A model generated the notes under the pieces. That model was not told where the DNA came from. It did not search any database and saw nothing but the letters and a program-made list of their open reading frames with translations. 64,000 bases of DNA, taken from the NCBI RefSeq assembly GCF_004331485.1, contig NZ_SJKD01000002.1:62001-126000 (forward strand), written 5' to 3'. Made by a program: the position numbers and the translations under genes. Below are positions 6,309-34,192 of the stretch, in pieces. The stretch is from Kribbella capetownensis (GTDB lineage Bacteria; Actinomycetota; Actinomycetes; Propionibacteriales; Kribbellaceae). Numbering within the stretch: position 1 is the first letter of the stretch; every line of letters begins with the position of its first letter.

Positions 6309-6323
6309 TGAAAATGATTGTCG
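6309..6323. promoter_or_regulatory. Zur-type box upstream of the surface-anchored repeat operon
   Basis: TGAAAATGATTGTCG fits the 7-1-7 actinobacterial Zur pattern (TGAAAAT-G-ATTTTCA) with two mismatches in the right arm. It lies 22 bases before the GTG chosen for the surface protein, so a bound repressor would block the promoter or early leader. Six stronger matches elsewhere in the window support the assignment. Confidence 0.7.
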
Positions 6324-6344: not shown

Positions 6345-8702
6345 GTGACCGCCACTCACGCCAGAGCGCGTCTTCTGTCCGTCCTTGTCTGCCTGTTGCT
6401 GGGTTGTCTGCCGCTGTTGATTCCTTGGGACGCCGGTGCGCAGCCGGCGCGTGAGGTGCTGCGCGCGGTGCACACCGATGTGCTGCACACGACGTACGAC
6501 GGGGCGTCGCTGAAGCTGGCGACGCGGATCGGGACGGGGGAGTACCGCGAGGCGGATCCGGCCGGACTGATCTTCAACCTGGAGGATCGCGGGTCGGCGA
6601 AGGTCGAGTTGCCGGATGTGCCGGCGTTCGCGTTCCTGGGGAAGCCGGGTGATCCGGTGTGGATTGCGCCGGAGTCGCAGGATCCTGAGTTGATCTGGCC
6701 GGGGTGGGACACCGAGACGATTGCGGCTGGGGTGATGAAGGACGATGTCGTCGACCTGACGCTGGTCAGTGCTGACGGCCCGGGTGCGGTGGAGGTGTTC
6801 TTCAACTACGACGAGTTCACCGGCGTCGTGCCGCGGGTCTTCAGCTCGGTGGATCCGGCGTACAAGACGTTGCACCAGCCGACCGGGCGGCATGTGCATG
6901 CGAATTGGTCGTTCGGTGCCCTAGGCACCTACAAGCTCGTGTTCCAGGCAACGGCGACAACGCAGGCCGGTGCGACGGTGAGCTCCGGGCCGGTCGAGTA
7001 CACCTTCGTGGTCGGTTCGTACGAGCCACCGACCACACCCCCCACGACGCCACCGACCACGCCGCCGACCACGCCACCAACGACGCCACCAACGACCGCT
7101 CCGACGACACGGCCTACCAGTTCGCCGACGCCGCCGGCCTGCGTGACCGCGGTCCTGTCCGTTGGCCATGTCGATGTCGCGGCGCGTACCGTCGGGTCCG
7201 CGCTCCGCTTCCAGGTGAAGGACGGGACGCAGGGTACGACGGTCTGGCGGGATCCCGGCACGGTTGCTTTCCAGGTGAAGCCGTCCGCGGACGAGGCCGT
7301 GCCGGCGTCGCCGTCGTATCGATTCCTCGGCGCCGCCGGTACGACGGTCTGGCAGATCCCGCAGACGCAGGCCGAAGATCTGCTGTGGGCCGGCTGGAAC
7401 ACCGAGTCGGTCGACTACAGCACGCTGAACGGTCCGGTGCGATGGTCGCTGGACAAGGTCGCCGGGCCGGGCAAGGTCGCGGTCTACCAGTTCGACCAGT
7501 TCGGTGAACCGCTGATTTCCTTCGACAGCGCGAAGACGTTGCCACAGTCGATCAGTCTCGCGGGACCGACCCATGCCCACGGCAACTGGGCGTTCACCGA
7601 GCTCGGCCTCTACGAGCTGACCTTCACCTACTCGGCGACCACGAAGTCGGGACAGCAATTGAAGGACACCGCCACTCTCCCGGTGGTCGTCGGCTCGGAC
7701 CTCGGGGCCCTCTGCCCGGGCGGCCCGACGCCAACCTCGGAGCCGACCGAAACGCCGACCACGGGGCCGACGGATACGCCAACCACGACGCCTACCGCAT
7801 CGCCTACCTCGTCACAGCAGCCGACGCAGGACCCGACGACGGCACCCACGTCCGCGCCGTCAGGGCAGTCGTCCCCGAGTCTTCGTCCGTGCACCACGAC
7901 CTCGTCTCCCACCCGCACACCGGCGGCCGGCACGACCGGCACGAGCACCGCGTCGACGACCGCGCCCGGTACGACGTTGACCAGTGGGCACGCGGACTAC
8001 GCAGCACGGATCGAAGGCTCGTCCTTGACGTCTCGCCTGAAGGACGGAACAAAGACCGGCGATCCGGTCTGGAGGGATCCGGCCGCGGTCACGATCCGGC
8101 TGAACTCGGCGGCCGGGACCACGGCTCCCGGCGGAGCGTTCTCGTTCCTGGGCGCAACCGGATCGGCCATCTGGCAGATCCCACAGACACAGAAGGCCGA
8201 TGTCGTCTGGCTGGGCTGGAACACCGAGGAGCTCACGGCCGCCCAGGTGTACGGCGGTGGCGTCGACTGGCGACTAGACAAGGTGACTGGACCCGGCCGG
8301 ATGGCGGTGTTCGAGTTCGACTCGTTCGGCCGGCCGAAGATCATCTTCAACTCTGCCGACGGGCTGCCGGACAGGTACCGCATCCCGCTGGGAACGCATG
8401 CCCATGGCAACTGGGCGTTCACCGCGGCCGGCACGTACACCGCCACGTTCACCCACTCGGCCACGCTCGCGGACGGCAAGCAGTCCGCCGACACCACGAC
8501 GTTGAAGTTCGTCGTCGGTCCATCCGGTGGTGCCCGTTCCTTCGCGGACGATTCGAGTCCGGCCCCGACCACCGAGGCGACCACCGACTGCAAGCTGGCC
8601 ATGACCGGCGGATCGATCGGACCGGGCCTGCTCGCCGGGGCAGCAGTCTTCGTTCTGCTCGGAGTCGTGCTGGTGATCGCTACCCGACGAGGTATCCGGT
8701 GA
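6345..8702 (+). CDS. LAxTG-anchored cell-wall protein with three surface-anchored repeats (choice-of-anchor M type)
   Basis: From GTG 6345 the protein has 785 residues. A signal peptide (LLSVLVCLLLGCLPLLIPW) is followed by three copies of the actinobacterial surface-anchored repeat (from memory, TIGR03769/TIGR03773 families), roughly residues 35-220, 263-455 and 548-735. Thr/Pro-rich linkers with PPTT units separate them. Each repeat carries FLG-x2-G, a PQ-x-Q or similar turn, WPGWxTE or similar, and HxHxNW (H183/185, H410/412, H685/687). The C-terminus has LAMTG at 751-755, a hydrophobic helix and an RRGIR tail, a sorting signal suited to class E sortase. The first gene of a translationally coupled operon, it probably displays metal-binding modules on the cell wall for the ABC importer encoded downstream. 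A TTG start at 6318 is possible but overlaps the Zur-type box. Confidence 0.85.
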   Translation: MTATHARARLLSVLVCLLLGCLPLLIPWDAGAQPAREVLRAVHTDVLHTTYDGASLKLATRIGTGEYREADPAGLIFNLEDRGSAKVELPDVPAFAFLGKPGDPVWIAPESQDPELIWPGWDTETIAAGVMKDDVVDLTLVSADGPGAVEVFFNYDEFTGVVPRVFSSVDPAYKTLHQPTGRHVHANWSFGALGTYKLVFQATATTQAGATVSSGPVEYTFVVGSYEPPTTPPTTPPTTPPTTPPTTPPTTAPTTRPTSSPTPPACVTAVLSVGHVDVAARTVGSALRFQVKDGTQGTTVWRDPGTVAFQVKPSADEAVPASPSYRFLGAAGTTVWQIPQTQAEDLLWAGWNTESVDYSTLNGPVRWSLDKVAGPGKVAVYQFDQFGEPLISFDSAKTLPQSISLAGPTHAHGNWAFTELGLYELTFTYSATTKSGQQLKDTATLPVVVGSDLGALCPGGPTPTSEPTETPTTGPTDTPTTTPTASPTSSQQPTQDPTTAPTSAPSGQSSPSLRPCTTTSSPTRTPAAGTTGTSTASTTAPGTTLTSGHADYAARIEGSSLTSRLKDGTKTGDPVWRDPAAVTIRLNSAAGTTAPGGAFSFLGATGSAIWQIPQTQKADVVWLGWNTEELTAAQVYGGGVDWRLDKVTGPGRMAVFEFDSFGRPKIIFNSADGLPDRYRIPLGTHAHGNWAFTAAGTYTATFTHSATLADGKQSADTTTLKFVVGPSGGARSFADDSSPAPTTEATTDCKLAMTGGSIGPGLLAGAAVFVLLGVVLVIATRRGIR

Positions 8703-10246
8703 AGCGCCTCATCGCGGCGATCTGTGCGGGTGCCTTGGCTGTTGCCGGCTGCTCCGTCGGCACTGGGGCGGGCGACAGCGGCCGTCTGAATGTCGTTACG
8801 ACCACGGAGATCCTGGCTGACTTGGTGCAGCAGGTGGGCGGTGATCGAGTGAGTGCGTCCTCGCTGGTTCCGGCCGGCGGCGACCCGCATTCGTACGAAC
8901 CGACGCCGGCCGACGCCAAGCGGGTGGCCAAGGCGGATGTCACGTTCACCAACCACCTGTTGCTCGAACCGCAGTCGTTGATCAAGACGATCGACGCCAA
9001 CGCGGACAAGGATGCTCCCAATGTCTCGCTGGCGGAGGCGGCCGAGTCGTACGGCGCCCACGTCATCCCGCTGGTGGAAAACATGGGCCTGGATGTGCTG
9101 TGGCTCGGGCTACGGGTGCGCGGCACCGGCAAGGCGCGCGGCGCGACTCGGACGTCGTCGGTACGACTGGCGGCGACCAAGCTGGACGGTCCGGGGAAGC
9201 TGGTCGCCTACCTGACCGAGTCCCTGGGCCGGCCGGACCGGTACTTCGACTCGACCGACGGACTCGGGCCGGGCGACAGTACGACGCTCCCACCGGCAGC
9301 GCACACACATCTGAACTGGGCGTTCACCAAGCCCGGCGTCTACCACCTGACGCTGACCGGCAGCCTCGACAACGGTGGCGGCAAACCGCTCCAGCCGCTC
9401 GGTTCCGGCACGTTCACGTTCGCGGTCGGAGTCGAGCCGCACAGCGTCAAGCCGGCCGACGGCGGTACGGCGACAGTCCTCGGCGAAGGTCACACGGACC
9501 TCACGGTCGACCTGGACACGGGCCAGGTCTACGCGTACTCCGACGCGAAGAAGGTGGGCGCCACGCAGAGTCAGGTGCCGGCGAGCAAACTCGTCATCGA
9601 CGTACCGAACAAGGCACTCGTGGCCGTCCCCGACGATCCGCGGTTCGCCTTCCTCGGCAAGCCCGGCTCACGGATCCACCAACTTCCACAGGCTGTGCTC
9701 GGCAAGCATGTGCACGGCGAGATCGATCCCCACCTGTGGCAGGACGTCGCCAACGCCAAGGCCTACGTCCAACTGATCCGCGACACGCTGATCAGCAAGG
9801 ACCCCGACGGCAAGCAGACCTACACCGACAACACCGCCGCATACCTGAACCAGTTGACCGACCTCGACGACTACGTGCGGACGACGCTTGCCACCATCCC
9901 GCCGGATCGGCGCCAACTGGTGACGACCCACGACGCCTTCGGCTACCTGGCCTCGGCATACGGGATGACGGTGGCGGGATTCGTCGTACCCAACCCGGCA
10001 CAGGAGCCGAGCGTCGAGCAGGTCCGCAAGCTGTCCGACACGATCCGCAACCTGAAGGTCGCGGCCGTGTTCACCGAACCGAACCTCGCCCGGCGTGCGT
10101 CCGTGCTCGTCCAGGTCGCTCATGACCAGGGCGTCCAGGTCTGCTCGCTGTACGGCGACGCCTTCGACGACCACGCCCGCACCTACGTCGAGATGATGCG
10201 CCACAACGCCGACGAGCTGAAGCGCTGCCTGGGGGAGACCCGATGA
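8699..10246 (+). CDS. Anchored-repeat ABC transporter, metal-binding lipoprotein with inserted repeat domain
   Basis: The protein has 515 residues and starts at GTG 8699, overlapping the previous stop (GTGA). A lipobox (LAVAGC) marks it as a lipoprotein. Residues 25-128 are the N lobe of a cluster A-I (ZnuA-like) metal-binding protein, with DPHSYEPT supplying a typical ligand histidine. Residues 129-331 are a surface-anchored repeat, and from residue 332 the C lobe resumes with GEIDPHLWQD and THDAFGYLASAYG. From memory this architecture is TIGR03772. Within the insert the repeat halves occur in reversed order (HTHLNW half first, FLG half second), that is, circularly permuted. It should deliver zinc (or manganese) to the permease at 11822. 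Operon context and the Zur-type box argue for zinc. Confidence 0.85.
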   Translation: MKRLIAAICAGALAVAGCSVGTGAGDSGRLNVVTTTEILADLVQQVGGDRVSASSLVPAGGDPHSYEPTPADAKRVAKADVTFTNHLLLEPQSLIKTIDANADKDAPNVSLAEAAESYGAHVIPLVENMGLDVLWLGLRVRGTGKARGATRTSSVRLAATKLDGPGKLVAYLTESLGRPDRYFDSTDGLGPGDSTTLPPAAHTHLNWAFTKPGVYHLTLTGSLDNGGGKPLQPLGSGTFTFAVGVEPHSVKPADGGTATVLGEGHTDLTVDLDTGQVYAYSDAKKVGATQSQVPASKLVIDVPNKALVAVPDDPRFAFLGKPGSRIHQLPQAVLGKHVHGEIDPHLWQDVANAKAYVQLIRDTLISKDPDGKQTYTDNTAAYLNQLTDLDDYVRTTLATIPPDRRQLVTTHDAFGYLASAYGMTVAGFVVPNPAQEPSVEQVRKLSDTIRNLKVAAVFTEPNLARRASVLVQVAHDQGVQVCSLYGDAFDDHARTYVEMMRHNADELKRCLGETR

Positions 10247-11076
10247 GAAGAACCGCAGCGGTGCTGCTCACCACCGCGTTCGTGTCTGCCGGTCTGGCGC
10301 CGGCTGCCGTCGCAGACTCGGTGCCACCGGCAACCGAGCGGCGAGTGATCGCCAACGGGCACGTCGACCTCGGCCCACAGTTCGTGAACGGGGCGTGGAC
10401 CATCCAGCTCCGCGACGACACGGGGGACCTCCCGCTCTGGCGCCCGCTGGAGAACGTGGTACTGCAAGCGACCAGCAAGGCACGGGTCGCCGTACCCGAC
10501 GATCCGTCGTACGCGTTCCTCGGCACACCTGGCGCGCAGGTCTGGGTGATCCCGCAGGTCCAGCAGGCAGGCGTCGTCTGGCCGGGCTGGAACACGCAGG
10601 ATGCCGAGGTCGCGAAGCGGGTCGACCGCGAGGTGACCTGGTCGTTGGAAGGTGTTAGCGGCCCGGGCAAGTTCACACTGTTCCTGAACTCCGACTTCGG
10701 CAAGCCGGCTCCGGTGTTCGACAGCAGCAAACCGTTCCCGCAGGAGACCGGGATCGACGTGAACACGCACGTCCACGGCAACTGGACGTTCGATGCCCAG
10801 GGCACCTACCTGCTGGACATCGCGATGACCGCCAAGCTGATCGACGGCACGAGTGTCACCGACCGGCGAACACTGCGCCTGTACGTCGGTCAGGGTGATG
10901 CGGCGGCTGCGTTCGCCTCCACCACACCCACGCCGACGACCGCTCCGGCAGCTACCGACACACCGGCGGCGAGCACGTCCGAGAACAACGTCTCGATGAC
11001 CTGGCTCATCGGGGCTGCGGGCGTGCTCGTCCTGGCTGCCGTCGGCCTCGGCGTCGCCCGGAAGCGGCGCGCATGA
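10243..11076 (+). CDS. Membrane-anchored surface repeat protein
   Basis: The protein has 277 residues: a signal peptide (AAVLLTTAFVSAGLAPAAVA), one surface-anchored repeat (about residues 34-225, with HVHGNW at 176-181), a Thr/Pro-rich stalk and a C-terminal transmembrane helix followed by ARKRRA. No LAxTG or LPxTG precedes the helix, so it is probably held in the membrane rather than linked by sortase. That would place one repeat close to the permease while the large three-repeat protein reaches outward. Its ATG overlaps the previous stop (ATGA), and its own stop overlaps the ATPase start. Confidence 0.8.
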   Translation: MRRTAAVLLTTAFVSAGLAPAAVADSVPPATERRVIANGHVDLGPQFVNGAWTIQLRDDTGDLPLWRPLENVVLQATSKARVAVPDDPSYAFLGTPGAQVWVIPQVQQAGVVWPGWNTQDAEVAKRVDREVTWSLEGVSGPGKFTLFLNSDFGKPAPVFDSSKPFPQETGIDVNTHVHGNWTFDAQGTYLLDIAMTAKLIDGTSVTDRRTLRLYVGQGDAAAAFASTTPTPTTAPAATDTPAASTSENNVSMTWLIGAAGVLVLAAVGLGVARKRRA

Positions 11077-11825
11077 GTGACGAGGTGTTGCAGGTCTCCG
11101 GCTTGGCCGTCGACCTTGCGGGACGCGAAGTTCTCCACGACGTGAATCTGGTGGTGACGCGGTCGGAACAGGTGGGGCTGATCGGCCCGAACGGTGCCGG
11201 CAAGACCACGCTGCTGCGGTCGCTGCTCGGGCTGATCCCGATCCGGGCCGGCAGCATCACCATTGACGGCCGGACACCGGGCGGAGCACGTGGCACCATC
11301 GGCTACGTTCCGCAGCGGCACGAGTTCGTCTGGGACTATCCCGTGCGGGTGCGGACCGCGGTGATGACCGGCCGGACCCACCGCATCGGCTGGCTGCGCC
11401 GGCCAGGTGCCGCGGATCGGGACGCAGTACGGGAGGCTCTCGAGCGAGTGGACCTCACGGACCTGGCCGACCGGCCGATCGGTGAGCTGTCTGGTGGCCA
11501 GCGGCAACGAGTTCTGGTCGCCCGGGCCCTGGCGTTGCAGCCGCGACTGTTGTTGCTGGACGAGCCGTTCACGGGTCTCGACGTGCCGACTCAGGAGATT
11601 CTGACCCGGTTGTTCCGCGAGCTGACCTCCGAAGGCACTGCGGTCCTGATGACTACGCATGATCTCCCGGCCGCGGCGGACACCTCGCACCGGCTCTGCC
11701 TGCTCAACCGGACCGTTGTCGCGGACGGCTCTCCCGACGAGCTGCGCGATCCCGCGGTGTGGTTGCGCGCGTTCGGCGTTGCCCGGTCCGAGCAACTGCT
11801 GCACAGCCTGGGAGTGGCCCGATGA
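11073..11825 (+). CDS. Anchored-repeat ABC transporter, ATP-binding protein
   Basis: The protein has 250 residues with a complete ABC ATPase motif set: Walker A GPNGAGKTTLL (about residues 38-48), the Q-loop in IGYVPQRHEF, the signature LSGGQRQRVLVARAL, and Walker B LLLLDEPFTGLD followed by the switch histidine in TTHDLPAA. It resembles ZnuC/MntB-type subunits (TIGR03771 from memory) and powers the permease encoded next. Four-base overlaps on both sides show tight translational coupling within the repeat-protein operon. Confidence 0.88.
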   Translation: MSDEVLQVSGLAVDLAGREVLHDVNLVVTRSEQVGLIGPNGAGKTTLLRSLLGLIPIRAGSITIDGRTPGGARGTIGYVPQRHEFVWDYPVRVRTAVMTGRTHRIGWLRRPGAADRDAVREALERVDLTDLADRPIGELSGGQRQRVLVARALALQPRLLLLDEPFTGLDVPTQEILTRLFRELTSEGTAVLMTTHDLPAAADTSHRLCLLNRTVVADGSPDELRDPAVWLRAFGVARSEQLLHSLGVAR

Positions 11826-12688
11826 TCGAGTTCTTCACCGAGCCGTGGACGCACGTGTTCATGCAGCGGGCGTTTCTGGTCGTGCTGATGTCGGGTGTGG
11901 TGTGCGGCGTGATCGGCAGCCATGTCGCGCTGCGGGGGATGGCGTTCATCGGCGATGCAGTGGCGCACTCGGTGTTCCCGGGGATCGCGATCGCGTTCGT
12001 CCTGAAGACCAGCCTGGTGCTGGGCGGCATTGTCGCGGGGCTTGTCACGGCCTTGTCGGTCGCCGTGTTCTCGCAGAATCGCCGGCTCAAGGAGGACACC
12101 GTCATCGGCGTCTTCTTCGCGGCCGCGTTCGGTCTCGGCATCGTGGTGATGAGCACGGCGCCGGGGTACGGCGGTTCGCTGGAGTCGTTTCTGTTCGGCT
12201 CGGTGCTCGGGATCAGCAACTCCGACGTGATCACGGTCGCCGTGGCCGGCGTCGTACTGCTGCTGATCAGCGGCGCACTGCACAAGGAGTTCGTCACCGT
12301 CGGACTCGACCGGGAGACCGCACGAGCCGTCGGGCTGCCGATCTTCTGGCTCGACCTCGCTCTGTACGCCATGGTGACGGTCTCGATCGTGATCTCGATC
12401 CAGGCCGTCGGCAACATTCTCGTCCTCGCCCTGCTGATCACACCGGCCGCGTGTGCGCGGCTGCTGACCGACCGGATCGGCGTGATGATGCTGATCGCGC
12501 CGGCGATCGGCGCCGTCTCCGGCCTGACCGGCCTGTACCTGTCCTACGCGTTCAACCTCGCCGCCGGCGGGTTGATCGTGCTCACCGCGACCGCGGTGTT
12601 CATCGCCTGCTGGGTGTTCGCTCCCCGGCACGGCCTGCTCTCCCGCCGTAGCCCAGCGGCGGCTCGGGTGGAACCCGTCCAACCCTGA
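11822..12688 (+). CDS. Anchored-repeat ABC transporter, metal permease
   Basis: The protein has 288 residues with eight or nine hydrophobic segments typical of the ABC-3 (ZnuB/MntB) family, including GSHVALRGMAFIGDAVAHSV near the N-terminus and the QAVGNILVLALLITPAA loop/helix that contacts the ATPase. I placed the start at ATG 11822, where it overlaps the ATPase stop. It probably dimerises to form the membrane channel for Zn(II) released by the lipoprotein at 8699. It corresponds from memory to TIGR03770. Confidence 0.87.
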   Translation: MIEFFTEPWTHVFMQRAFLVVLMSGVVCGVIGSHVALRGMAFIGDAVAHSVFPGIAIAFVLKTSLVLGGIVAGLVTALSVAVFSQNRRLKEDTVIGVFFAAAFGLGIVVMSTAPGYGGSLESFLFGSVLGISNSDVITVAVAGVVLLLISGALHKEFVTVGLDRETARAVGLPIFWLDLALYAMVTVSIVISIQAVGNILVLALLITPAACARLLTDRIGVMMLIAPAIGAVSGLTGLYLSYAFNLAAGGLIVLTATAVFIACWVFAPRHGLLSRRSPAAARVEPVQP

Positions 12689-12699
12689 AAGGAAATTCT

Positions 12700-13341
12700 A
12701 TGCGCAAGCCTTACCGCGTGGTCCTGCCCACCGTGGCAGTCCTCGCGCTCGCCGGCGTCGCATTGCCGGCCGATGCGGCATCGAAGGTGGTGCTGGACCA
12801 AGGACATGTCGACGTCGTCGGCATCGCCTTCGAGAACGGCGTGTTCGACCTGCACATCCACGACGAGGAGCACGGCGTCGAGTACTCCCCGTCCGAAGTA
12901 CAGCTGGTCGCCAAGCCGGCGGCGGAGATCGCCGTGCCGGACGACCCGTCGTACAGCTTCCTCGGAACGGCGGGCAGCAGTGCCTGGGTTCTGCCACAGG
13001 TCCAAGATCCCGAGCTGCTGTGGCCGGGGATCGGCGCCGAGGAGATCGAGTCCGGCGTGTTCACGAACGACGCGCTGAAGGTCGACGTGGTCGGCGTCAG
13101 CGGACCGGCCGATTTCAGCATTTTCACCACCGATCCATTCGGCGCGCCGACCGTCCTCGCCGACAGCGGCGACGGATTGCCAGACACCATCAACACCTCC
13201 GCGGGAGGACATATGCACGCCAACTGGGCCTTCGAGGCCCCGGGGAACTACCGACTGAAAGTGCGGGTCAGCGGCAAGGTCGCCGCGACCGGCAAGACCG
13301 TTTCCGCGATCGCCACCTACTGCTTCAAGGTCGGCCAGTGA
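12700..13341 (+). CDS. Secreted single surface-anchored repeat protein A
   Basis: The protein has 213 residues: signal peptide (VVLPTVAVLALAGVALPADA) and one surface-anchored repeat covering nearly all the rest, with FLGTAGSSAW, LPQVQ and HMHANW. There is no C-terminal anchor, so it may be free or bound to another repeat protein. A strong ribosome site (gaaaggaaattct) precedes ATG 12700, 12 bases after the permease stop. The role is inferred from the operon: an extracellular metal-binding or tower subunit. Confidence 0.8.
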   Translation: MRKPYRVVLPTVAVLALAGVALPADAASKVVLDQGHVDVVGIAFENGVFDLHIHDEEHGVEYSPSEVQLVAKPAAEIAVPDDPSYSFLGTAGSSAWVLPQVQDPELLWPGIGAEEIESGVFTNDALKVDVVGVSGPADFSIFTTDPFGAPTVLADSGDGLPDTINTSAGGHMHANWAFEAPGNYRLKVRVSGKVAATGKTVSAIATYCFKVGQ

Positions 13342-13979
13342 AGGCCGGGCGGCTCGCCGGCAGCCTGATCGCCGGTGTGGTGGCGGCGGTCCTCACCGTG
13401 GCTCCAGCGCATGCCGTCACCACCATCTCCTCGGGTCACGTGGACGCGGTCGATGTTGACTGGACCGGCTCCGCGCTGACCCTCGACCTCCTCGACAGCA
13501 CGGTGACTCCGCCGGTCGACCGGCAGCCGGCTGACGTCGTACTGAACGCAGTATCGGCCAGCAAGACGACGGTGCCGTCCAACTCGGCGTACTCGTTCCT
13601 AGGTACGCCGGGTTCGCCGGTGTGGATCCTGCCGCAGACCCAGATGAGCGGGATCGTCTGGCCCGGGTTCGACACCGAGGGCGTGCCGAGCGGCGTGCTG
13701 TCCGGGAACACGGTCACTATCAAGCTGGTGTCCGTGAACGGTCCGGCCGACCTGAGCGTCTACACGACCAACTCGTTCGGAACTCCGACCGTGTGGTTCG
13801 ACAGCGGCAACGGCCTGCCGGACAACCGCTCGATCGCGATCAACACCCACGCCCACGCCAACTGGGCCTTCGAAGCGGCCGGCACCTACACCGCCGTCTT
13901 CGAAGTCACCGCGACGACTGCAGGCGGCACGGCAATCTCCACCGGACAGAAGACCTACACGTTCACCGTCCAGCCGTAA
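13338..13979 (+). CDS. Secreted single surface-anchored repeat protein B
   Basis: The protein has 213 residues from GTG 13338, which overlaps the previous stop (GTGA). It has a signal peptide (SLIAGVVAAVLTVAPAHA) and one repeat with FLGTPGSPVW, LPQTQ, WPGFDTE and HAHANW. It is a diverged paralogue of the preceding gene and equally lacks any anchor. It is the last gene of the operon; a strong hairpin follows within ten bases of the stop. Confidence 0.8.
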   Translation: MKAGRLAGSLIAGVVAAVLTVAPAHAVTTISSGHVDAVDVDWTGSALTLDLLDSTVTPPVDRQPADVVLNAVSASKTTVPSNSAYSFLGTPGSPVWILPQTQMSGIVWPGFDTEGVPSGVLSGNTVTIKLVSVNGPADLSVYTTNSFGTPTVWFDSGNGLPDNRSIAINTHAHANWAFEAAGTYTAVFEVTATTAGGTAISTGQKTYTFTVQP

Positions 13980-15421: not shown

Positions 15422-15718
15422 TCAGTGGTCGTCGTAGTGGCCCTCGTGGGCCGCGTGGCGGTGGCCGTCGTGGATGTAGTCGGTGTGGTCGCCGTGCGGG
15501 ACGGCGACGTGGCCGCAGTTGGCACCGTGCTGGTGCTCGTGGCCGGCGTGCTGAGCGTGGTCGGCCGGCTCGCACTCGTCGACGTGCCCGTCGTGGGACT
15601 TGTGCAGGTGGCCGTCGTGGACGTAGTCGGTGTGGTCGCCGTGCGGGACGGCGACGTGCCCGCAGTTGTCGCCGTGCTGGTGCTCATGGGCGACGTGTTC
15701 GGCGTGGGTCGTGGTCAT
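15422..15718 (-). CDS. Histidine-rich small protein, probable zinc buffer or chaperone
   Basis: The protein has 98 residues, of which 27 are histidine and 3 cysteine. It is built from two copies of a 49-residue unit, each with HEHQHGxNCGHVAVPHGDH then HDGHxH; the second copy begins about residue 60. The duplication is visible at DNA level as two matching blocks 147 bases apart (about 15471-15549 and 15618-15696). No signal peptide is seen, so it is likely cytoplasmic. Its ATG overlaps the stop of the ArsR repressor gene upstream (ATGA), which makes it the repressor's likely target. It probably binds excess Zn(II), Co(II) or Ni(II). Confidence 0.8.
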   Translation of the reverse strand: MTTTHAEHVAHEHQHGDNCGHVAVPHGDHTDYVHDGHLHKSHDGHVDECEPADHAQHAGHEHQHGANCGHVAVPHGDHTDYIHDGHRHAAHEGHYDDH

Positions 15719-16020
15719 GCTGGTGCTTCCTCCTGATTGTCTTCCTGCGTATGGCGGATGGCGTCGCTGACGATGTGGGCGACGTGCTCATCGGTGAGGG
15801 AATAGATTCGCTCGCGTCCTTGCGTCTCGACCTGGATGAGCCGCATCGCCCGGAGCAGTCGCAGGTGCTGAGAGACCAACGGCTGCGACTCGCCCGTGGC
15901 AGTGACCAGTGCGTGCACGGCCGCCGGGCCTTTGGTGAGGTGATCGATGATCGCCAGCCGCACGGGTGCGGACAGCGTTCTGAAGAGCTCGCTCGCTGAA
16001 ACGTATCGCCGGTCAGCCAC
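15715..16020 (-). CDS. ArsR/SmtB-family metal-sensing repressor (alpha5 site)
   Basis: The protein has 101 residues with a winged helix (PVRLAIIDHLTKGPAAVHAL, then QPLVSQHLRLLRAMRLI). The C-terminal helix reads DEHVAHIVSDAIRHTQE, which matches the zinc site of SmtB/CzrA in spacing: Asp, His+2, His+13, Glu+16. The Glu in the last position matches SmtB rather than CzrA. It should dissociate from DNA on Zn(II) binding and derepress itself and the His-rich protein. The promoter region contains an AT-rich imperfect palindrome. Confidence 0.85.
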   Translation of the reverse strand: MADRRYVSASELFRTLSAPVRLAIIDHLTKGPAAVHALVTATGESQPLVSQHLRLLRAMRLIQVETQGRERIYSLTDEHVAHIVSDAIRHTQEDNQEEAPA

Positions 16021-16141: not shown

Positions 16142-16163
16142 GTTGGTGAGAGATAGGTGCGCT

Positions 16164-17096
16164 GTGAGGCTGCGTAGTTCGGTTGGAGTCCTGGCTGGTG
16201 CGGCGGCGGTCCTGCTGCTCTCCGCATGCGGTTCGTCCGGCGGAGATGACAACGCCGCCGGTGCGGCCGGCACATCGTCGCCCGCGGCCGCGATTCAGGT
16301 CGTGGCGTCGACGAATGTGTACGGCGACATCGTGAAGCAGATCGCGGGTGACAAGGCCGAGGTGACATCGATCATCTCCGACCCCGATCAGGACCCGCAT
16401 TCCTACGAGGCGAACACGCAGACGCAGCTGGCGCTGTCGAAGGCGAAGGTCGTGATCGAGAACGGCGGCGGCTACGACGATTTCATGGACACGATGCTGA
16501 AGGCGTCCAAGAACACGTCGGCCAAGGTGCTCAATGTGGTGAACATCTCCGGCAAGACCGCCCCCGCCGGCGGAGAGCTCAATGAGCACGTCTGGTACGA
16601 CTTCCCGACCGTCGAGAAGCTGGCCACCCAGCTGGCCGGGACGCTGTCCGAGGTCGACTCCGCGAACAGTTCGACGTACACCGCGAACGCGGCCACCTTC
16701 GCCGACAAGGTGAAGCAGCTCGAGGCCACGGAGGCGTCGATCAAGACGACCTCGAACAGTGCCGGCGCCGCGATCACCGAGCCGGTTCCGTTGTACATGC
16801 TGACCGCGTGCGGACTGGTGAACAAGACACCGGGGGAGTTCAGCGAGGCGATTGAAGAGGGCACCGATGTCCCGGCGGCGGTGTTGCAGGAGACGCTCGG
16901 GTTGTTCAGCTCGAAGCAGGTCAAGTTGCTGGCCTACAACGAGCAGACCTCCGGCCCCGAGACCGAGAAGGTGCTGGCGGCGGCCAAGGCGAACGGAGTG
17001 GCCGTCGTGCCGGTGACGGAGACCCTGCCGGCCGGCAAGGACTACCTGGCCTGGATGACCAGCAACGTCGACGCCATCCGCTCGGCACTGTCCTGA
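16164..17096 (+). CDS. ZnuA-like zinc ABC transporter binding lipoprotein (set 1)
   Basis: The protein has 310 residues and starts at GTG 16164. The lipobox is LLLSAC, after an alanine-rich signal sequence. Cluster A-I motifs are DPDQDPHSYEAN (ligand His), VIENGGGYDDFMD, NEHVWYDFPTVEKLA (second ligand His) and YNEQTSGPETEKVLAAAKA near the C-terminus. The extended His-rich loop of enterobacterial ZnuA is absent. It should capture Zn(II) outside the membrane and pass it to the permease at 17943. It heads a three-gene operon behind a Zur-type box. Confidence 0.87.
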   Translation: MRLRSSVGVLAGAAAVLLLSACGSSGGDDNAAGAAGTSSPAAAIQVVASTNVYGDIVKQIAGDKAEVTSIISDPDQDPHSYEANTQTQLALSKAKVVIENGGGYDDFMDTMLKASKNTSAKVLNVVNISGKTAPAGGELNEHVWYDFPTVEKLATQLAGTLSEVDSANSSTYTANAATFADKVKQLEATEASIKTTSNSAGAAITEPVPLYMLTACGLVNKTPGEFSEAIEEGTDVPAAVLQETLGLFSSKQVKLLAYNEQTSGPETEKVLAAAKANGVAVVPVTETLPAGKDYLAWMTSNVDAIRSALS

Positions 17097-19272: not shown

Positions 19273-19296
19273 TGCTTGCGTACATGCATGCTTGCG
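19273..19296. promoter_or_regulatory. Candidate operator between ArsR repressor and P1B-4 ATPase
   Basis: Two direct TGCTTGCG elements (19273-19280 and 19289-19296) flank TACATGCA in the 64-base gap between the divergent genes. The arrangement suggests a repressor site covering both promoters. Confidence 0.45.
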
Positions 19297-19312
19297 CAGA
19301 TACGATGCTCTG

Positions 19313-21340
19313 GTGACGGTTGATCTCGAGGCGACGACCACCGCTGTTGGCCCTCCAGTCGGCCGGCTGCGTGGGCGGTGGTGGCGGCGCAGCACGTGGT
19401 CGTTGCCCGAGGTCCGATGGGCAGCGACCGCGACCGGGCTGTTCCTCGCGGGCCTGGCCGCCCAGCTCGGCGGTGCTCCGCGGTGGGTGTCCTGGCCTCT
19501 CTTTCTCGCCTGTTACGCGTCCGGCGGCTGGGAGCCGGGTGTGGCCGGGCTGCGTGCGCTGCGCGAGAAGCGGCTGGACGTCGATCTGCTGATGGTCGCG
19601 GCGGCGATCGGCGCCGCCGCGATCGGTCAGGTTCTCGACGGCGGGCTGCTGATCGTCATCTTCGCCACCTCCGGCGCGCTGGAGGCGATCGCCACGAAGC
19701 GCACCGAGGACTCGGTCCGTGGACTCCTCGACCTGGCTCCCGACACCGCTGTCCGGATTCGCCCCTCGCATACCGACGTCGACGGCGAGGAAACGGTGCG
19801 GGTGGTCGACCTCGTGGTCGGCGACGTGATCCTGGTGCGGCCAGGCATCCGCATCGGCGCAGACGGGACCGTTGTCGACGGCGCGAGTGAGGTCGATCAG
19901 GCGACCATCACAGGAGAGTCGATGCCGGTCGACAAGCAGCCCGGAGACGAAGTGTTCGCAGGAACCATGAACGGATCGGGCGCACTGCAGGTCCGGGTCG
20001 ACCGGACCGCCGGCGAATCCGTGGTCGCCCGGATCGCTGCGCTGGTCGCCGAAGCCACCCGGACCAAGGCCAAGACACAGCTGTTCGTCGACAAGGTCGA
20101 ACAGCGCTACTCCGTCGGTATGGTGACCGCGACCGTCGCGCTGTTCGTCATCCCGCTGCTACTGCGGCAACCGTTCACACCGACGTTGCTGCGGGCGATG
20201 ACGTTCATGATCGTCGCCTCGCCGTGTGCGGTCGTGCTTGCCACCATGCCGCCCCTGCTCGCGGCGATCGCGAACGCCGGACGCCAGGGCGTGCTGGTGA
20301 AATCCGCCGTGGTGATGGAGCTGCTCGGCCGAACCTCGCAGATCGCTCTCGACAAGACCGGGACGCTCACGCGCGGTACGCCGTACCTAGCCCGCATCCT
20401 CACCCTGCCCGGCTCTGGGCTCAGCGAGGACGAGGCCCTCGGACTCGCGGCCTCGGCCGAGCATCCCAGCGAACACCCGCTGGCTGCGGCGATCGTGGCC
20501 GCTGCCCGCGCGCGGCAGTTGCCGCTCGTCCCGGTCGATGCCTTCGCGGCCACAGCCGGACAAGGCGTGCACGCGACTGTGCGCGGCCGCGAAGTTCGCA
20601 TCGGTTCTCCGGCCGGTGTGCGGAGCAGTAGCACCTCCGCCGCCGCGGAGGCACTGACGGCGCTGCTGCTCGAGGGCGCGACGGTGTTGGTCATGACAGT
20701 GGACGGCGAATCCGCAGCCGCGTTCGGAATGGTCGATCAGCTCCGCCCTGAGGCTCCTGACGCGGTCCGCCGACTGACGCGCCTCACTGAGCGGCCGCCG
20801 ATCCTCCTGACGGGCGACAATCCCACCGCGGCTCGAACCGTGGCCGCGGGCGTCGGGATCCACGATGTGCGCGCCGGACTACGGCCCGATCAGAAGGCAG
20901 AGCATGTACGTCGGATGCAGACCTCAGGCGCGAAGGTCACCGTGATCGGCGACGGCATCAACGACGCGCCGGCCCTGGCGGCCGCGGACACCGGCATCGC
21001 CATGGGTGGCGCCGGGTCCGACCTCACGCTGCAGACGGCGGACGCGATCATCGTCCGGGACAACCTCTCGACGGTGCCCGCGGTGATCGCGCTGTCGCGC
21101 AGGGCCCGGCGCGTCGTCGTGGCGAACTTGATCATCGCGGCGTCTTTCATGACCGTCCTGGCGGTTTGGGATCTGGCCGGACATCTGCCGCTGCCGCTCG
21201 GGGTGGCCGGTCATGAAGGATCCACGGTCATCGTCGGACTCAACGGGCTGAGGCTTCTGCGCAGATCCGCCTGGCCCCGCGCAGGCCGGACCGACCGAAT
21301 GCGCTCGAGAACGTCTCGCCAGGACGCCGGCCGGGTGTAA
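19313..21340 (+). CDS. P1B-4-type heavy-metal translocating P-type ATPase
   Basis: From GTG 19313 the protein has 675 residues. It lacks an N-terminal heavy-metal domain and has fewer N-terminal helices than ZntA, as in the P1B-4 subgroup. The TGES actuator loop (TITGESMPVD), the membrane SPC motif (303-305), phosphorylation site DKTGTLT (D347), a HP-type loop (SAEHPSEHPLAAAI), GDGINDAPAL, and the final-helix signature HEGST (634-638) are all present. SPC plus HEGxT is characteristic of Co(II)/Fe(II)/Zn(II) exporters such as CoaT and CtpD. It is paired with a divergent ArsR sensor and should export excess metal. A TTG at 19292 would overlap the putative operator. Confidence 0.87.
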   Translation: MTVDLEATTTAVGPPVGRLRGRWWRRSTWSLPEVRWAATATGLFLAGLAAQLGGAPRWVSWPLFLACYASGGWEPGVAGLRALREKRLDVDLLMVAAAIGAAAIGQVLDGGLLIVIFATSGALEAIATKRTEDSVRGLLDLAPDTAVRIRPSHTDVDGEETVRVVDLVVGDVILVRPGIRIGADGTVVDGASEVDQATITGESMPVDKQPGDEVFAGTMNGSGALQVRVDRTAGESVVARIAALVAEATRTKAKTQLFVDKVEQRYSVGMVTATVALFVIPLLLRQPFTPTLLRAMTFMIVASPCAVVLATMPPLLAAIANAGRQGVLVKSAVVMELLGRTSQIALDKTGTLTRGTPYLARILTLPGSGLSEDEALGLAASAEHPSEHPLAAAIVAAARARQLPLVPVDAFAATAGQGVHATVRGREVRIGSPAGVRSSSTSAAAEALTALLLEGATVLVMTVDGESAAAFGMVDQLRPEAPDAVRRLTRLTERPPILLTGDNPTAARTVAAGVGIHDVRAGLRPDQKAEHVRRMQTSGAKVTVIGDGINDAPALAAADTGIAMGGAGSDLTLQTADAIIVRDNLSTVPAVIALSRRARRVVVANLIIAASFMTVLAVWDLAGHLPLPLGVAGHEGSTVIVGLNGLRLLRRSAWPRAGRTDRMRSRTSRQDAGRV

Positions 21341-21346
21341 TGGACA

Positions 21347-21361
21347 TGGAAATCATATTCA
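21347..21361. promoter_or_regulatory. Zur-type box upstream of zur
   Basis: TGGAAATCATATTCA fits the 7-1-7 pattern and lies 42 bases before the zur start, implying autoregulation of the zur-GTPase-WD40 operon. Confidence 0.75.
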
Positions 21362-25904: not shown

Positions 25905-26756
25905 TCAAGCGGCGGAATGGTGCATCCCTCCCCGCTCGGAGGCGTCGGCGTGCACCGCCGGCGCTGCTGGATCTCCGACGACGACCATCCTGCCGTCGGA
26001 AGCGCGGAGTACGTCGACCCGCGTTCCGTACAGGACCGACAGGGTGTCCGAGGTGATCACGTCGCCGGGTGGACCGGAGACGGCCTTGCCGCCGGCGAGG
26101 TAGATCACGCGGTCAAGGTGGTGGAGGATCGGGTTCACGTCGTGCGCCACCATCATGACCGCGACCTCCTGCTCGCGGCAGATCCGGCCGATGAGTGTGG
26201 CGATCGCGCTCTGGTTGGGCAGGTCGAGACTGTCGAGCGGCTCGTCCAGTAGCAACAACTCCGGGCGCTGGACGAGCGCCTGGGCGATGAGCAGCCGTTG
26301 CTGCTCCCCACCTGAGCACTGGCCGATCGGCCGGTTCGCGTACGCCGACGCGCCGACCAGTTCGATCAGCTCCGCGACCCGGGTGCCGGCCGCCGCGTTG
26401 CGTCCGCCGCGGCCGGGAAGGGGAAGACCCCACCGGTGGCCGTCGAGTCCGAGGCGGACGATGTCGGTTCCGCGGATGCGCAGCCCTGGGTCGAAGCTGC
26501 GGCGCTGTGGAAGGTAGCCGACCCGGCGACCGGCATGCCCCGGCGCCGCATCCAGGACCCGGACCCGTCCCGTTGCTGAGGGCAACAAGCCGAGCAGGAC
26601 CTTGAGCAGGGTCGACTTGCCGGCCCCGTTCGGGCCGAGGACGGCGGCGAACTCGCCGTGCCGGACGGTGAGGTCGACGCCGCCCCAGAGCGTGCGCCCA
26701 CCTACACGTACGGCCGCGTCGCTCAGCTCGATGACCGCCGGTCGTTCGTCGGTCAT
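25905..26756 (-). CDS. ZnuC-like ABC ATPase (set 2)
   Basis: The protein has 283 residues and starts at ATG 26756, overlapping the binding-protein stop. It has a canonical Walker A GPNGAGKSTLL, Q-loop VGYLPQRRSF, a signature CSGGEQQRLLIAQAL with Cys in the first position instead of Leu, Walker B LLLLDEPLDSLDLPN and switch VAHDVNPIL. The C-terminal extension of about 50 residues ends in a His-containing tail (HADASERGGMHHSAA). It drives the two permeases downstream. Confidence 0.87.
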   Translation of the reverse strand: MTDERPAVIELSDAAVRVGGRTLWGGVDLTVRHGEFAAVLGPNGAGKSTLLKVLLGLLPSATGRVRVLDAAPGHAGRRVGYLPQRRSFDPGLRIRGTDIVRLGLDGHRWGLPLPGRGGRNAAAGTRVAELIELVGASAYANRPIGQCSGGEQQRLLIAQALVQRPELLLLDEPLDSLDLPNQSAIATLIGRICREQEVAVMMVAHDVNPILHHLDRVIYLAGGKAVSGPPGDVITSDTLSVLYGTRVDVLRASDGRMVVVGDPAAPAVHADASERGGMHHSAA

Positions 26757-27706
26757 TTCCCGGTCGCCGTCGCTAGTGCCTGCTGGATCGCCTGCAACTG
26801 TTGTACCTGCCAGTCCTGGAAGGACGCGCCGGCTGGTGTCAGTGTCTCGGTCACCGTCGCCACGGGGATGCCCTTCGCCTTGGCCGCGGCGACCTGGGCG
26901 CGCACGTCCGGCGTTGCGTTCTGGCTGTTGAAGACGTAGACCTTGATCTGCCCGGTGGCGATCTGGTGGTCGATGGCCGCCTTGTCGGCCGCAGTCGGGT
27001 CCGAGCCCTCGTTGATGGCGTTGAGGAAGCCGATGGGGGTCAGCACCGGCAGTCCGAGCTGGTCGGCGAGCGGCGACACGATCGACTCGGAGGCACCGAT
27101 CGGCGTACCGGCGTACTTCGCCTTGATGTCGGCGACGAGCCTCTGGTACGGCGCGAGTGTGGTGTTCTCGAAGGTGGCCCGTTGCTGGTCGAAGTACGCC
27201 GCATCCGTCGGGTCGATGGCCTTGTAGTCCTCGGTGATCTTCCCGATCACCGTGTGGACATCGGCGGGGGAGTACCAACGGTGTGGGTTGCCGCCCGGCT
27301 TGATGCCGAGCAGATCGCCGACAGTGAGGTCGGTGCGATTGTTCGCCGGTGCCGCGGCCAGTAGCTTCGAGGCCCAGGCGTCGTACCCGATGCCGTTGAC
27401 GATCGTGTATCGCGCGTCGGCGAACGTGCGCGCGTCCGCGGCGGTCGCCTCGTAGTCGTGCGGATCGGACGCGGGGTTGTTGATGATGCTGGTGACGTTG
27501 ACGTGGCTGCCGCCGAGCTGGGCAGCGATGCTGCCCCAGAAGTTCTCCGCGGCAACCACCTGGACGGTTTGACCGTTGCCTCCGGCGGAGGCGGTCGGGG
27601 GAGCGGTGGAGCAGGCCGCGGTCGACGCGGAGGCAATGGCGGTGAGCGCGCCGATGACGATCCACCGCGCGGTGCGATGGACCCAACGTGCTGGGACAGG
27701 ACGCAT
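26753..27706 (-). CDS. ZnuA-like zinc ABC transporter binding lipoprotein (set 2)
   Basis: The protein has 317 residues; ATG 27706 is chosen because gaggaga lies nine bases upstream. The lipobox is STAAC. Cluster A-I features are NPASDPHDYEAT (ligand His), IVNGIGYDAWASKLL, GGNPHRWYSPADVHTVI (second ligand His), and SESIVSPLADQLG. The C-terminus has VFNSQNATPDVRAQVAAAKA. A decayed copy of this gene type lies at 36493-36940. It heads the leftward operon with one ATPase and two permeases behind a strong Zur-type box. Confidence 0.87.
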   Translation of the reverse strand: MRPVPARWVHRTARWIVIGALTAIASASTAACSTAPPTASAGGNGQTVQVVAAENFWGSIAAQLGGSHVNVTSIINNPASDPHDYEATAADARTFADARYTIVNGIGYDAWASKLLAAAPANNRTDLTVGDLLGIKPGGNPHRWYSPADVHTVIGKITEDYKAIDPTDAAYFDQQRATFENTTLAPYQRLVADIKAKYAGTPIGASESIVSPLADQLGLPVLTPIGFLNAINEGSDPTAADKAAIDHQIATGQIKVYVFNSQNATPDVRAQVAAAKAKGIPVATVTETLTPAGASFQDWQVQQLQAIQQALATATGK

Positions 27707-27766
27707 GATGCTCGTTCTCCTCACAACTGGACGGCCCGGGACATCCCGAGCAGTCCTCAGATTACA

Positions 27767-27781
27767 TGAAAACGATTTTCA
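27767..27781. promoter_or_regulatory. Zur-type box upstream of znu set 2
   Basis: TGAAAACGATTTTCA has perfect complementary six-base arms and is the closest match to the actinobacterial consensus in the window. It lies 61 bases before ATG 27706; ACTATCA follows, possibly extending the site. Confidence 0.85.
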
Positions 27782-34173: not shown

Positions 34174-34192
34174 AATGATAATCGTTATCATT
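34174..34192. promoter_or_regulatory. Perfect Zur-type palindrome between the ABC/ECF operon and a decayed zur copy
   Basis: AATGATAATCGTTATCATT has eight-base perfectly complementary arms around TCG; the inner 15 bases are 34176-34190. It lies between divergent genes and probably controls the leftward transport operon. The rightward gene is a broken zur paralogue. Confidence 0.85.

Follow-up and report, generated by a model that had tools for sequence, protein, structure and literature searches.

The predicted substrate-binding lipoprotein of an anchored-repeat zinc importer in Kribbella capetownensis contains an insert that is almost certainly one complete choice-of-anchor M repeat in true circular permutation. 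Its gene lies in a 64,000-nucleotide stretch of DNA, which was analyzed as a whole and is called the window below. As a whole, the observations are best explained by the permuted repeat serving, in a flexible loop, as a likely zinc-loading domain, a reading to which we assign a probability of roughly 0.6. The question bears on the route of zinc across the thick Gram-positive wall and on its hand-over to a membrane lipoprotein, and a permuted domain in the loading loop suggests how wall zinc could reach the importer. Since the repeat-homologous domain in this loop is conserved, the hand-over step becomes directly testable. The insert also represents a clear natural circular permutation that is fixed across many actinobacterial families. 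The reversal of its motifs has already been published; no description of a complete, circularly permuted domain in the loading loop turned up in the papers searched.

The locus and its binding protein

The lipoprotein gene belongs to a run of seven genes, which encode in order a three-repeat wall protein, the lipoprotein, a single-repeat membrane protein, an ATPase, a permease and two secreted single-repeat proteins. Most adjacent genes of the run overlap by four bases. The features of the locus are as follows.

6309..6323, forward strand: Zur-box-like site TGAAAATGATTGTCG, 21 bases 5' of the first gene
6345..8702, forward strand: wall protein with three normal-order repeats and a LAxTG-type C-terminal signal; start GTG 6345 inferred from the signal peptide
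8699..10246, forward strand: predicted zinc-type substrate-binding lipoprotein of TIGR03772 with the permuted repeat
10243..11076, forward strand: single-repeat membrane-anchored protein of the ZnuE type (profile match, repeat tree and neighborhood)
11073..11825, forward strand: TIGR03771 ATPase (profile match)
11822..12688, forward strand: TIGR03770 permease; start ATG 11822 inferred, as it overlaps the stop codon of the gene before it
12700..13341, forward strand: secreted single-repeat protein without anchor (profile match)
13338..13979, forward strand: second anchorless secreted protein with a single repeat; start GTG 13338 inferred

The lipoprotein of 515 residues matched the TIGR03772 model (NCBIfam anch_rpt_subst) over model positions 1-486 of 486 with 657.6 bits against a cut-off of 350.45, and it is an ordinary member of this known family. 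The Pfam model PF01297 (ZnuA) gave 249.9 bits and the AztC model NF040870 228.3 bits, which is below its cut-off of 350. Among named genomes, the closest homologs are Kribbella proteins. Its neighbors also scored above their cut-offs, with 341.5 bits for the TIGR03771 ATPase, 369.4 bits for the TIGR03770 permease and 465.6 bits for the TIGR03773-type wall protein. The first repeat of this wall protein (6456-7016) has APESQ instead of PQxQ at the position corresponding to the break point, and its HTD motif lacks the preceding Gly.

In the predicted model of the lipoprotein the bilobed ZnuA/TroA fold is intact; it matched MntC with a Z score of 30 and 2.0 Å over 255 residues, and AztC similarly. 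The putative binding site consists of three histidines and one acidic residue, which are invariant in 24 aligned family members and whose roles were assigned by homology.

8888..8890, forward strand: ligand H64 (DPHSYEP)
9731..9733, forward strand: ligand H345 (DPHLW)
9929..9931, forward strand: ligand H411 (THDAF)
10157..10159, forward strand: ligand D487 (YGD)

Its sequence marks the lipoprotein as the binding component of an anchored-repeat zinc ABC importer, with the predicted fold of cluster A-I zinc/manganese substrate-binding proteins.

Order and origin of the repeat halves

The initial annotation had proposed that the insert is a surface repeat with its halves swapped and a break at the PQ/LW junction. 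This was borne out by profile searches, profile rotation, hhalign, predicted structures and a tree that points to a single origin. The limits given for the landmark motifs were also correct (LDVLW 131-135, HTHLNW 202-207, FAVG 241-244, GHTD 264-267 and LPQ 329-331). The parts of the insert and the adjoining hinge are listed below.

9083..9691, forward strand: permuted repeat insert, residues 129-331 (profile, rotation, hhalign)
9089..9430, forward strand: first part, residues 131-244 (LDVLW...HTHLNW...FAVG), which corresponds to the C-terminal half of a free repeat
9302..9310, forward strand: HTH, predicted zinc ligands, residues 202-204 (invariant, 81/81)
9431..9475, forward strand: linker bridging the native termini of the repeat (C to N), residues 245-259
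9476..9691, forward strand: second part, residues 260-331 (VLGEGHTD...FLGKPG...LPQ), which corresponds to the N-terminal half of a free repeat
9491..9499, forward strand: HTD, predicted zinc ligands, residues 265-267 (invariant, 81/81)
9692..9721, forward strand: conserved hinge AVLGKHVHGE, residues 332-341 (low model confidence)

The NF038134 (choice-of-anchor M) and TIGR03769 repeat models matched the lipoprotein with 106.2 bits (cut-off 55) and 43.3 bits (cut-off 30.9), respectively. The order of the free repeats, GHxD...PQ...LW...HxHxNW, is absent from the insert, and the halves are crossed in all 81 lipoproteins compared, which were taken from a genome collection and the window. Whether TIGR03772 members share this order had been left as a check, and all 81 homologs examined do; the 24 aligned members of the first set have the swapped order as well. 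No un-permuted plain insertion was found when it was sought in the 81 proteins. At the level of sequence the insert is a permuted homolog rather than a collinear member of the NF038134/TIGR03769 repeat family.

A profile built from 384 complete free repeats matched every one of the 81 lipoproteins first with a stretch ending at column 183 and then with columns 1-73. In 24 of them the first stretch begins early (column 60 or before), which seems to reflect over-extension into host sequence, and the order is unchanged. With the TIGR03772 model, the free repeats of the window were found as crossed pairs, e.g. model positions 224-308 followed by 104-220. When the free-repeat profile was rotated column by column, unbroken matches scored on average 71 bits without rotation and 115 bits at the optimum, which lay at columns 73-76, just after lPQ. 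Comparison of the insert family with the unrotated free family by hhalign gave two crossed matches of 108 and 73 columns, and with rotation at column 74 a single match of 179 columns was obtained (Prob 100, E 5.6e-42). A reversed control profile gave no match.

Structures were predicted with AlphaFold2 for a free repeat (mean pLDDT 98) and for the lipoprotein (mean pLDDT 85), the least confident regions of the latter being the linkers that flank the insert (about 54-56). The models were compared by their lists of secondary structure elements, in which the lipoprotein is numbered as the protein minus 30. The lists agree between the two models and are crossed as the permutation predicts. Nine elements, from E78 to E181 of the free repeat, correspond to E105 to E213 of the insert, after which seven elements, E5 to E69, correspond to E235 to E299. 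The single helix of the domain, H54-59 of the free repeat and H284-289 of the insert, and the strand carrying the HxH motif (E142-144 and E171-174) are modeled at equivalent places. No relative of known structure was found for the repeat by sequence search (nothing below E 0.89), Foldseek with the free-repeat model gave no match at E 0.001, and VIA-align with this model reached a best Z score of 6.8 with common beta-sandwich matches, which we took as no informative relative.

The linker between the native ends, measured from VG to GHxD, is 13-19 residues long in 80 of the 81 family members. The new ends lie in an 8-residue loop and the native ends need the 13-19-residue linker, and it is plausible that the permuted ends suit the ZnuA-like fold.

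The lipoprotein is present in 44 of 392 genomes of the order to which the source organism belongs. For a quick tree of the repeats, the halves of each insert were first returned to the free-repeat order. All 23 inserts in this tree formed one clade with a support of 99 and a long stem, so a single old event of insertion and permutation is likely. The permuted insert most likely arose once and was kept across Actinomycetota. Its source may have been a fragment of a tandem array that began midway through one repeat and ended midway through its successor, which would yield the swapped order directly. In 78 of the 81 loci a single-repeat gene directly follows the lipoprotein gene, and in two more it is fused to it. 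The lipoprotein and the next single-repeat membrane protein form one polypeptide in Allorhizocola and Catelliglobosispora; the fused frames extend, stop to stop, over 9335-11884 in locus L104 and 9461-11848 in locus L108.

The loading loop and the role of the insert

The segment of the lipoprotein that has no counterpart in AztC comprises residues 117-338 and lies opposite residues 112-131, approximately, of AztC, in a numbering that was derived in this analysis by setting H138 as the His of DPHAW. The D-loop of AztC is flexible (residues 117-133) and, with its His residues, is required for zinc transfer from AztD (PMC7463823). The insert occupies the place of this D-loop, beside and before the metal ligand H345. 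The Z-loop of AztC was considered as insertion site and rejected, as it comprises residues 222-229, and it is the D-loop that corresponds. In several relatives that lack the insert, a His-rich loop is found at this position. The first two metal-binding histidines are 281 residues apart in the window protein and 266-297 in the family, as compared to 61-68 in relatives without a long loop. One binding protein without the insert (L019) has a long His-rich loop ending in GHVHGEFDPHVW, which is the same end as in the permuted-insert family.

From the hinge that follows the insert into the H345 motif, the lipoprotein reads HVHGE(I)DPHLW. None of the 81 lipoproteins departs from the HxH and HxD motifs of the insert or from HVHG of the hinge. 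This set was gathered by a regular expression containing HVHG, but its 80 loci had been found by other motifs, and each of them held such a protein. Due to this invariance in inserts that sit on a long branch, HxH, HxD and the hinge appear to be under constraint.

In the mechanism that we propose, a repeat has been placed whole and permuted into the flexible loop preceding H345, its old ends being joined by a linker of about 16 residues and its new ends being opened at the PQ/LW loop. The insert has kept its HxH and HxD motifs and is tethered by the conserved flexible HVHG hinge. It would take zinc from the repeat proteins of wall and membrane, or directly, and hand it through the hinge to the site of three His and one Asp, which would then deliver zinc to the permease. 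Zinc binding by the insert, zinc transfer and the docking partner are predictions, and for the loading function taken by itself the chances are about even. As HxH and HxD are retained within the insert, it could simply serve the lipoprotein as a zinc-loading domain of its own. A more specific version is a covalent relay, in which a built-in arm would connect the wall and membrane repeats via the HVH hinge to the main site and the permutation would have set the new ends of the donor at the loading loop; we advance this version tentatively.

The homologs of Corynebacterium diphtheriae are Zur-regulated and affect zinc-limited growth, for which the His residues of HxD and HxH are needed (PMC6711530; PMC12445094). 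Of the free repeats of this organism, ZnuE, ZnuF and ZnuG react to zinc in vitro, ZnuE is required when zinc is low, and the motif His residues are important for growth (PMC12445094). These data on zinc and growth, together with the adjoining or fused single-repeat gene, favor a zinc-loading domain that is fed by repeat proteins. In the same study zinc binding in vitro by the free-repeat motif itself was unproved (PMC12445094). Because His-to-Ala mutants of ZnuE were still zinc-responsive in vitro, and the loss of znuA had a modest effect compared with the greater importance of znuE, zinc may be received mainly by something other than the binding protein (PMC12445094).

Alternatively, the insert could be a docking module that contacts the free repeats of the ZnuE type or of the wall and keeps the binding protein near, with zinc passing directly from these repeats to the main site. 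The presence of a single-repeat gene next to the lipoprotein gene or fused to it in 80 of 81 loci lends indirect support to such a coupling, which the initial annotation had suggested, and the repeat type of the next gene forms its own clade in the quick tree, apart from one mislabeled row. However, the invariance of all putative zinc residues of the insert would be needless for pure docking, and self-association of free repeats is not known. We consider this explanation unlikely. An improbable reading is that the insert gates or senses zinc in the manner of the His-rich loop in ZnuA, binding it only when it is plentiful and then slowing or blocking loading. The insert shares its loop position with such His-rich loops and with the D-loop, and in C. 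diphtheriae the free repeats can depress the growth of cells that lack the transporter (PMC12445094). Against this, the Zur-box-like site before the operon suggests expression when zinc is scarce, so a gate that closes at high zinc would be of little use. Two separate half-domains pairing in trans with complementary halves of other repeats, which the two HMMER stretches obtained with the unrotated profile might suggest, are very improbable, and this reading was rejected on the one continuous match of the rotated profile; moreover a short linker of fairly constant length joins the halves, which were both modeled confidently and together have the full set of strands of a complete repeat.

The preferred reading of the insert as a zinc-loading domain can be compared to known systems. 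C. diphtheriae ZnuA (DIP0438, earlier TroA) is annotated as a member of the TIGR03772 family, like the lipoprotein described here (PMC6711530). In it, too, HxH precedes HxD, and its locus shares the gene order A-E-C-B with the window (PMC12445094). Peng et al. (2025) described the motif of this ZnuA as being in reverse orientation with shorter spacing and did not call it a circular permutation (PMC12445094). The published reversal of motif order is explained by the insert being circularly permuted. That account covers short motifs only, and neither the whole permuted domain nor its position in the loading loop. A literature search, with most subscription papers and all preprints outside its range, did not find the permutation of a complete domain in the loading loop.

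AztC of Paracoccus denitrificans is a zinc-binding protein of the same fold, and transfer from AztD needs the same loop and its His residues (PMC7463823, PMC6689063). AztD is a separate beta-propeller protein, whereas in the lipoprotein the loop itself houses a domain of the repeat type. In AdcA of Streptococcus, a ZinT-like helper domain sits at the C end of the ZnuA-like domain. This helper is fused and unrelated in kind, whereas the helper proposed here is loop-inserted and permuted; the ZnuA-like plus ZinT-like architecture has in common with our proposal a covalently attached zinc-binding helper (PMC6689063). The Pht proteins of Streptococcus pneumoniae are surface proteins with zinc-binding repeats that have been proposed as zinc donors to a lipoprotein (PMC12445094); unlike the system described here, they have a different motif and the lipoprotein has no insertion.

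Zur-box-like sites and other putative zinc genes

Eight Zur-box-like matches were observed in the window, against 0.12 expected by chance. Across the family 52 sites occurred in 42 of 80 loci and none in shuffles. Other Kribbella loci with enough upstream DNA have a Zur-box-like site at the same place.

The window contains two further ZnuA-type binding proteins. One is encoded together with ABC genes at 26753-27724 (reverse strand), with a Zur-box-like site (27767-27781, 1 mismatch) about 43 bases 5' of its start. In the other (16143-17096, forward strand), which has an ATPase and a permease behind it, NEHVWYD replaces DPHxW. A very His-rich protein of 98 residues without family match adjoins an ArsR-type metalloregulator (15422-15718 and 15715-16020, both reverse strand) and is possibly a zinc buffer. 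A heavy-metal P-type ATPase is encoded at 19292-21340 (forward strand), with a weak Zur-box-like site just behind it (21347-21361), and a further weak site of this kind lies at 34176-34190.
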